Below, one piece after another: positions 22,945 to 63,586 of a stretch of 64,000 nt of DNA. Position numbers and translations under genes: made by a program. The notes beneath the pieces are model-generated. The model did no database searches. It was not told the DNA's origin and saw only the letters and a list, made by a program, of their open reading frames with translations. Within the stretch, counting starts at the first letter, position 1; each line of letters begins with the position of its first letter. The DNA is from Akkermansia sp. (GTDB lineage: Bacteria > Verrucomicrobiota > Verrucomicrobiia > Verrucomicrobiales > Akkermansiaceae), in contig NZ_JAJBTT010000038.1 of NCBI RefSeq assembly GCF_020860705.1, positions 1 through 64,000 of the forward strand, in the 5' to 3' direction.

Positions 22945-23131
22945 CGGATTTGGAATCTGTGAGATCAGCCAGAGCTGCCATCAAAAAGGTCTATTGATAG
23001 GGAATAGAAGGATAATAGGGGCAATAGGGCAAATTCTGCCGACCCCTATTATTCCTATCATCCTTATATTCCCTATAACTCCTACCCAACTTTTCCACAG
23101 ATTTTCCCTTTGACTTCGGATTCCAAATCCG
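22945..23131. promoter_or_regulatory. Candidate invertible element A (orphan copy)
   Basis: Two palindromic sites face each other: CGGAT-TTGGA-ATCTG (22945-22959) and CGGAT-TCCAA-ATCCG (23117-23131). The 5-nt cores are exact reverse complements, so the sites form an inverted pair. TTGACT (23110-23115) lies one base inside the right site, as in elements B and C. Neither flank has a good -10 (AACAGC on the right, TAAGAA on the left) and no PEP-CTERM gene adjoins it, so it may be inactive. The interior is homologous to element B. Confidence 0.55.
22960..23116. repeat. Non-coding repeat, copy 1 (interior of element A)
   Basis: About 155 bp shared with copy 2 at 24814-24965. The best-conserved parts are GGATAATAGGGGC near the middle and CCAACTTTTCCACAGATTTT at the right end. 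It contains a long imperfect hairpin (about 22997-23021 with 23043-23076; the right arm has a 9-nt insertion). No coding capacity is seen. Confidence 0.7.
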
Positions 23132-24798: not shown

Positions 24799-24980
24799 CG
24801 GATTTATAATTCGTAATAAATCAGCGTCGCTATCCAGGATGCCTATGATAGGAAATATAAGGATAATAGGGGCTATAGGAAATTTTACGGGCCCTGTTAT
24901 CCCTCCCGGCCTTATATGCCCCTATTGACTCTAACCAACTTTTCCACAGATTTTTCCTTTGACTCCGGATTATAAATCCG
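24799..24980 (-). promoter_or_regulatory. Candidate invertible promoter element B
   Basis: Sites CGGAT-TTATA-ATTCG (24799-24813) and CGGAT-TATAA-ATCCG (24966-24980) form an inverted pair with exactly matching 5-nt cores. Inside the right end is TTGACT (24959-24964), one base from the site and pointing away from the PEP-CTERM gene. On the gene side, one base beyond the left site, is TATTCA (24792-24797). In the order shown, the -35 position facing the gene reads TTTATT. After inversion it would read TTGACT at a 17-bp spacing, so this assembly looks like the OFF state. Confidence 0.6.
24814..24965. repeat. Non-coding repeat, copy 2 (interior of element B)
   Basis: The sequence is homologous to 22960-23116 over nearly its whole length. 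Shared blocks include AAGGATAATAGGGGC and CCAACTTTTCCACAGATTTT before TTGACT. An imperfect internal hairpin is present here too. The two copies differ in the 5-nt cores of their end sites although each copy is internally matched. Confidence 0.7.
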
Positions 24981-62606: not shown

Positions 62607-63398
62607 TCAGGCCCTGCGCCGGCGCAGGCACAGAGAGGCCAGGCCAAGCAGGCTCAGCGTAGCCGTGGCAGGTTCCGGAACCTGCGTCAGGGAAAGGTAA
62701 TTGAGGGCTGTACGGCCAAAACTGCTGGAACCATCCCCTTGAAGCGTGAGCGTGAGTGTGCCGTCTTCCCCTACCGTGATGTGTTCCACCGTGGAATAAA
62801 GTCCTTTGTTGGCGGAAGAGTTAGAGCTGTTTCCAGCATTTCCGGGAGTCAGGACTCCGGAACTGTCTCCCGTCGTCATGGAAAGCTGATTCCACTCTCC
62901 GGAGGCGTCCGTTCCAAAATTTGACCATGTCGCATTGGAAGCGTCGGCGCCTCCGATCGTCCAAGTCTGGCTGGCAAAAACATCCTTGCCCGTGAAGCCG
63001 CCAAAAATGGCCAGAGAGTATTCCCCGGCGGCAAGACCGGTGAATGTCACCGTAAAGGAACCGGAACCATTCGTCGTTTGTGTTAAAAGCCCATCCCGGA
63101 AGCTGTCTCCCAGGGAAAAAGGCAGGCTGCCGCCAAAAGCGTTCTTCCAGCCGTTTTCTTCCCCGGTCGTCTTGGTCGTGGTATGACCGTCATCCCCCAC
63201 AGGGTATCCGGCAGTGCTCCATCCCAGAGTGACGCTGCCCGGCATCGTGCCCAGAGCATCGGTGGAATGATCGTAATTCATATTGAGAGCTCCGGATGTC
63301 GTGGCGTCATCACGCCCGAAATCAATTTGCACAGTCGCCGCCTGCACTGCCAGCAGGGAACTTGAGATCAGAGCTAATGAAAAAAGAGTTTTCTTCAT
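62607..63398 (-). CDS. PEP-CTERM exported protein, beta-rich
   Basis: The 263-residue protein has a signal peptide (1-20, ending AVQA) followed by VQIDFGRDD, a frequent start in this group. The Ser/Gly/Thr-rich body contains FTVTFTGLAAGEYSLAIFGG and looks like a jelly-roll or carbohydrate-binding-like fold (inference). The end is a full PEP-CTERM tag: VPEPATATLSLLGLA, LCL and RRRRA. Candidate invertible element C lies immediately upstream; its gene-proximal site starts 17 bp before the ATG, so the transcript would have a leader of only about 3-5 nt. Confidence 0.85.
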   Translation of the reverse strand: MKKTLFSLALISSSLLAVQAATVQIDFGRDDATTSGALNMNYDHSTDALGTMPGSVTLGWSTAGYPVGDDGHTTTKTTGEENGWKNAFGGSLPFSLGDSFRDGLLTQTTNGSGSFTVTFTGLAAGEYSLAIFGGFTGKDVFASQTWTIGGADASNATWSNFGTDASGEWNQLSMTTGDSSGVLTPGNAGNSSNSSANKGLYSTVEHITVGEDGTLTLTLQGDGSSSFGRTALNYLSLTQVPEPATATLSLLGLASLCLRRRRA

Positions 63399-63415: not shown

Positions 63416-63586
63416 CGGATCAATAATCCGGTGAAGGTGCATGCTTTTCAGATTAAAATATATATTATTTATAATAAATATATTACATGTATTCGTTCTC
63501 TCATAAATATTTTTCAATACAGGAAAAATAAAAAAGATATGTTATTTAATTTTCAGTATTTTCATTGACACCGGATTATTGATCCG
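63416..63586 (-). promoter_or_regulatory. Candidate invertible promoter element C
   Basis: CGGAT-CAATA-ATCCG (63416-63430) and CGGAT-TATTG-ATCCG (63572-63586) are exact reverse complements over 15 bp, with a shared GTG extension to 18 bp on the inner/outer edges. One base inside the right site is TTGACA (63565-63570), pointing away from the PEP-CTERM gene. One base beyond the left site is TTTACT (63409-63414), pointing toward it. As written, the gene-facing -35 position reads CCTTCA. After inversion it would be TTGACA-17 bp-TTTACT. The interior is 141 bp of very AT-rich DNA. Confidence 0.65.

Follow-up and report, generated by a model that had tools for sequence, protein, structure and literature searches.

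The window analysed here, a stretch of 64,000 nucleotides of an Akkermansia sp. genome, carries close to its right-hand end (63416-63586) a short AT-rich segment, hereafter element C, held between two mirror-image sites and placed in front of a gene for a putative surface protein. The question raised by this locus is whether the segment turns over in the chromosome and, if so, which part of a promoter it carries along. The preliminary description had proposed that only the -35 hexamer is moved and that the recombination site itself fills the spacer of the promoter. Here, I compare element C with its counterparts in other genomes and with the remaining sites of its kind in the same genome.

The locus and the gene behind it

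Element C is bounded on the forward strand by a near, gene-proximal site (63416-63430, CGGATCAATAATCCG), the would-be promoter spacer of the ON state, and by a far site (63572-63586, CGGATTATTGATCCG) which is its exact reverse complement; the earlier reading of two 15-bp sites around 141 bp is thus correct to the base. Between the two lies the invertible AT-rich segment (63431-63571, 141 bp, 21% GC), present in the window in its OFF order. As had been stated, a -35 hexamer, TTGACA, is located 1 nt inside the far site (63565-63570, forward strand), and a -10 hexamer, TTTACT, lies 1 nt outside the near site, beyond the segment (63414-63409, reverse strand), the latter being a weak -10. The gene-facing -35 slot as found reads CCTTCA (63432-63437, reverse strand), with no match to the consensus. 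Flipping 63431-63571 in silico reproduces the predicted TTGACA-17-TTTACT, a combination absent from the order as found, so that, on the letters of the locus, a promoter facing the gene would be made or broken through inversion. A whole-genome search with the 15-mer of element C returned only these two paired copies. In the window, CGGAT-N5-ATCCG occurs five times against 0.09 expected, and perfect 15-mer inverted repeats spaced by 60-600 bp occur four times against 0.04 expected; counts so far above expectation exclude a chance origin for element C.

The gene to be switched (62607-63398, reverse strand) encodes a protein of 263 aa with a signal peptide and a PEP-CTERM domain. The latter assignment, already made in the preliminary description, is borne out by a match to PF07589 (24.6 bits, Pfam cut-off 20.7) and by a C-terminal VPEP motif with a hydrophobic stretch and a basic tail, together with an N-terminal signal peptide recognised by inspection; the protein would be expected to function at the surface of the cell in the host. 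Its ATG is 17 nt from the site and just 10 nt from the -10 hexamer, therefore transcription is predicted to start about 4 nt before the ATG and to yield a near-leaderless mRNA. The locus was compared among six genomes, namely that of the window, four other whole genomes (G017, G047, G049 and G053) and the named record A. muciniphila Mouse_2_MG, and the distance from site to ATG is 17 nt in all of them. The named loci closest to that of the window are in A. muciniphila records.

A site class with a putative promoter in fixed register

CGGAT-N5-ATCCG is found 100 times in the 3.07-Mb genome, as opposed to a single match for the reversed-pattern control, and the flanks of all 100 sites were inspected. 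Exact pairs of sites at most 700 bp apart number 31, all in inverted orientation with cores that complement each other, and no pair is direct. Many of the other sites are matched to a partner but for one mismatch, or are located at a contig end. Inverted arms with a core matching that of the partner, the arrangement on which inversion by tyrosine recombinases depends, are therefore found in 31/31 exact pairs, and a 5-nt core flanked by short arms is compatible with inversion driven by such an enzyme. That the cores pair only in inverted orientation, as had been claimed, is confirmed by these 31 pairs and by the co-variation of the cores across species (see below). Element C shares with the class its inverted CGGAT/ATCCG arms, its intergenic position and a distance between sites of about 130-190 bp, while its site departs from the usual arm in the sixth base of one arm, which is C instead of T (CGGATC AAT AATCCG). 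It is one of dozens of invertons of a published class, not a lone element.

Two further invertons of the class lie in the window, at 22945-23131 and at 24799-24980. The first is bounded by sites at 22945-22959 and 23117-23131, the second by sites at 24799-24813 and 24966-24980, and in each the left-hand site carries a single mismatch. Both have TTGACT 1 nt to the inner side of the right-hand site, and an upstream stretch of the AACTTTTCCACAGATTTTTCC type is common to the two. Across the genome, several invertons have interiors, about 154 bp long, that are homologous to one another, which indicates that copies were duplicated or dispersed. Two others (L076 and L082; C24:24777-25332 and C28:69676-70231) have GC-richer interiors of 526 bp, and both adjoin PEP-CTERM genes.

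The 62 half-sites of the 31 exact pairs show a strict register. TTGA occurs at an offset of exactly 1 nt on the inner side of the site in 27 of them, as compared to 0-4 at other offsets (binomial p about 1e-30, a value which is overstated given that some invertons duplicate each other and the -35 counts are not fully independent). TA starts 1 nt outside the site in 23/62, as compared to 1-8 elsewhere (binomial p about 3e-12), and only four times at the same offset on the inner flanks; being confined to the outer flanks, it is more than a mere continuation of the recombination site. Genes follow the same polarity: 17 PEP-CTERM genes adjoin the 31 invertons, 13 of them start on the -10 side, and none of the 17 starts on a flank that lacks a -10 while the other flank has one. 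Also on the -10 side are genes for, among others, a bacterial sugar transferase, an autotransporter-repeat protein and a PMT-family protein. Under a simple rule, 17 invertons are called OFF and 4 ON, 10 being left without a call. Apparent hairpins (CTAAGGA..TCCTTAG and CTAGGG..CCCTAG) are also seen just after the site in the leaders of PEP-CTERM genes at L053 and at L068 (first inverton).

The alternative that survives best, albeit an improbable one, is a conventional invertible promoter, i.e. one lying complete inside the segment, TTTACT being incidental. Most published invertible promoters are built in this way, and a sigma-70-like TTCAGA-17-TATAAT does lie wholly within element C. Internal matches of this kind, however, are at chance level in the AT-rich interior (2 found, 1.2 expected), and the -10-like TA stands in fixed register outside the sites and not on the inner flanks. 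Moreover, TTGACA, TTTACT and the 17-nt spacer are invariant in the six genomes, and conservation of the interior is concentrated at its TTGACA end, where the last 9 columns reach a mean pairwise identity of 93% as against 35% in the first 15 columns. The proposal of a -35-only switch with the site as spacer is sustained by conservation in six genomes and by the recurrence of this register in most of the 31 invertons, and a split promoter, in which only the -35 would flip, is a well supported model as far as sequence patterns can tell. TTGACA and TTTACT are presumably used in the sigma-70 manner, with promoter activity when joined and silence in the OFF order.

Orientation between genomes and within the assembly

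Relative to the gene, the interior of element C is flipped in G017, G049 and G053, and is in the order of the window in G047 and Mouse_2_MG, both orientations being thus represented among the six genomes. A case in point concerns G053 and Mouse_2_MG, which are nearly identical on either side of the segment (upstream 297/300, 99.0%; gene 695/700, 99.3%) and whose interiors are identical at 140/142 positions (98.6%) when one is inverted, versus 88/142 (62%) in direct alignment, about the level of unrelated pairings in the same comparison. Likewise, G047 and G017 are 95% identical upstream and 97.4% in the gene, the interior being 92% identical when inverted versus 67% direct. The core is CAATA/TATTG in four genomes and CAACA/TGTTG in two, both sites being altered together, and the outer-arm mismatch of the near site (GAACCG) is found outside whichever way the interior lies, which places the crossover within the site. 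On this comparison at one and the same locus, the segment is an inverton, and the site-specific inversion of 63431-63571 proposed earlier holds.

Traces of the same process are found at the ends of contigs. A site lies within 60 bp of 20/108 contig ends (0.2 expected), at distances of either 0-3 or 37-40 bp; these distances would be those of an orientation bubble, as from an assembly graph with both orientations at k=55, a k-mer value which is itself inferred and not a stated parameter. In the case of C34/C47, the assembly connects a single interior end with each of the two outer flanks, hence both orientations are present in it. Because repeated interiors could explain some of the other breaks, the case rests on C34/C47 and on the comparison between genomes. 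The window itself begins with a class site at the very start of contig C54 (1-15), where mixed orientation is the probable reason for the assembly break. At element C the assembly carries the OFF order and the locus is assembled without a break, thus a single orientation is seen in this sample.

The same observations bear on two readings in which nothing would turn over in place, both very improbable. In the first, the promoter is static and CGGAT-N5-ATCCG is the site of a transcription factor; operators are classically found in the promoter spacer, where this palindrome would lie, and copies of the motif abound in the genome. Yet near-identical genomes show direct inversion, which refutes an operator as the sole explanation, cores that match only within their own pair would be senseless for one common operator, and contig breaks coincide with the sites. 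In the second, element C is a MITE-like mobile element inserted either way round by its terminal inverted repeats, and the homologous interiors of about 154 bp would then be its duplicated or dispersed copies; this is rejected since, in contrast to the termini of transposons, the ends vary between copies but agree with each other in any one copy, since orthologous copies occupy one position between conserved outer flanks and differ in orientation alone, and since the segment is present in every genome where the locus was found. Neither target-site duplications nor empty sites, which would speak for such an element, came to notice in these comparisons.

Inversion of a split promoter is therefore the preferred reading: element C is very likely an inverton that phase-varies a PEP-CTERM surface protein, with a tyrosine recombinase acting on its 15-bp sites. 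The recombinase would pair the two sites and exchange strands in the matching 5-bp core, thereby inverting 141 bp, while the TTTACT -10 and the gene would remain fixed outside the segment. TTGACA, together with an AT-rich upstream tract, would be available at one end of the interior only. In the ON state the gap between it and the -10 would be exactly 17 nt, a spacer formed by the recombination site, and in the OFF state, that of the window assembly, CCTTCA would take its slot; production of the PEP-CTERM protein is expected to follow.

Candidate recombinases and known systems

As to the recombinase gene which the preliminary description had advised seeking in the rest of the genome, there are 13 matches to the Phage_integrase family and one serine recombinase of the Resolvase family (C7:12776-13438), the latter with no CGGAT site near it. 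Four of the tyrosine recombinases, at C28:166524, C16:76826, C20:198786 and C16:19858, are mutual paralogs, 43-58% identical, and two of the four adjoin CGGAT invertons. The ATG of L121 abuts an inverton site at C20:198771 (C20:198607-199859, L069), and expression of this recombinase may itself be phase-variable; L122 is about 29 bp from a site at C16:20924. L119, also one of the four paralogs (C28:166319-167624; L207, L208), has an inverton of its own whose arms belong to another class, CAGGATT..AATCCTG; this inverton is conserved in G047, G004 and G017. AGGATT..AATCCT was also considered as a second large regulon in this genome and rejected, for there are four such sites only, two of which are those of L119's own inverton. 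Among relatives of these recombinases across Akkermansia an inverton is often found just upstream, and in the tree its arms vary by clade (CGGATT, AGGATT, CGAATT, CGTATT, CGCATT and CGCTTT).

L120 is without an adjacent inverton. Exactly 8/59 genomes, that of the window included, have L120 or an ortholog of it (91-96%), with 37-84 sites each; in the remaining 51, more than eight sites are found only in G028 (88), G013 (22) and G015 (11). The L120 subclade alone tracks high site counts, an association confounded by shared ancestry and contradicted by G028, a genome of the Akkermansia genus (2.2 Mb) with 88 sites and no L120 ortholog; L120 cannot therefore be the sole enzyme for the CGGAT site class. 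A doubled set of inverton sites is seen in G028 before its recombinase (L181). A family-wide profile of presence and absence failed as a pointer to the invertase, nearly every Akkermansia genome having members, and a search by sequence for a solved structure similar to L120 gave no match. It is nonetheless highly probable that the invertase belongs to the Akkermansia family of tyrosine recombinases that holds L120, L121 and L122, and the recombinases paired with an inverton of their own are concrete candidates for it.

In Akkermansia genomes with few CGGATT sites, inverted repeats whose arms are asymmetric, of the type CGCTTT..AATCCGTAAG, lie before recombinase genes (L140, L143, L147, L148, L156, L193 and L199), which suggests other site classes and inverton regulons in those species. 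The chances are about even that the whole amounts to a design at the level of the genus, in which inversion of the -35 alone, with the site as an obligatory 17-nt spacer, would give dozens of genes one promoter format, and in which lineage-specific tyrosine recombinases, many of them preceded by a linked inverton of their own, would have diversified along with the arms listed above into separate switching regulons.

Akkermansia is a prominent gut symbiont in which phase variation of the capsule is already known. The inverted-repeat motif CGGATT..AATCCG is credited to Jiang et al. 2019, and the orientation of a cps1 inverton bearing it tracks capsule ON/OFF in culture, both orientations being found in culture, mice and humans (PMC13343947); the motif was found again as group 138, with 32 invertons in A. 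muciniphila ATCC BAA-835, PEP-CTERM genes are enriched nearby, and the promoter motif 138-2 failed the promoter test of that study (PMC11892184). Element C resembles these invertons in genus, repeat motif, intergenic position and PEP-CTERM neighbours (PMC11892184) and differs in its core, CAATA, and its arm, CGGATC..; with the cps1 inverton it has the site motif in common, although the latter drives a capsule locus and element C a PEP-CTERM gene (PMC13343947). Since the invertons, their PEP-CTERM link and capsule switching were already published, element C is a new member of a published class, for which the -35-only layout put forward in the preliminary description would be a mechanistic refinement supported by the sequence. 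In the accessible parts of the Akkermansia inverton literature, Jiang et al. 2019 aside, neither an account of the split layout (a fixed -10 outside, the -35 inside, the site as spacer) nor a named recombinase for the CGGATT..AATCCG invertons was found, and the split half-promoter repeated genome-wide seems not to have been spelled out before. This layout may explain why a search for complete promoters inside the segments was not significant (PMC11892184). Owing to the fixed format, any assembly or metagenome should reveal which of the dozens of surface genes are ON and which are OFF.

Two other systems offer a comparison. In Bacteroides fragilis, the capsule promoters lie whole inside their invertible segments and Mpi, the enzyme, is a serine recombinase. 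The Akkermansia set is alike in comprising invertible promoters spread over the genome, with a common site class and surface molecules as output, but here only the -35 would flip, the linked recombinases are tyrosine recombinases, and no serine recombinase lies beside the sites. Along the same line, insertion sequences with an outward -35 form hybrid promoters, in which, as proposed for element C, a mobile segment brings the -35 at its border up to a -10 already in place; insertion sequences do so by transposition, whereas element C would do so by reversible inversion in situ across a fixed 17-nt spacer made of the site itself.
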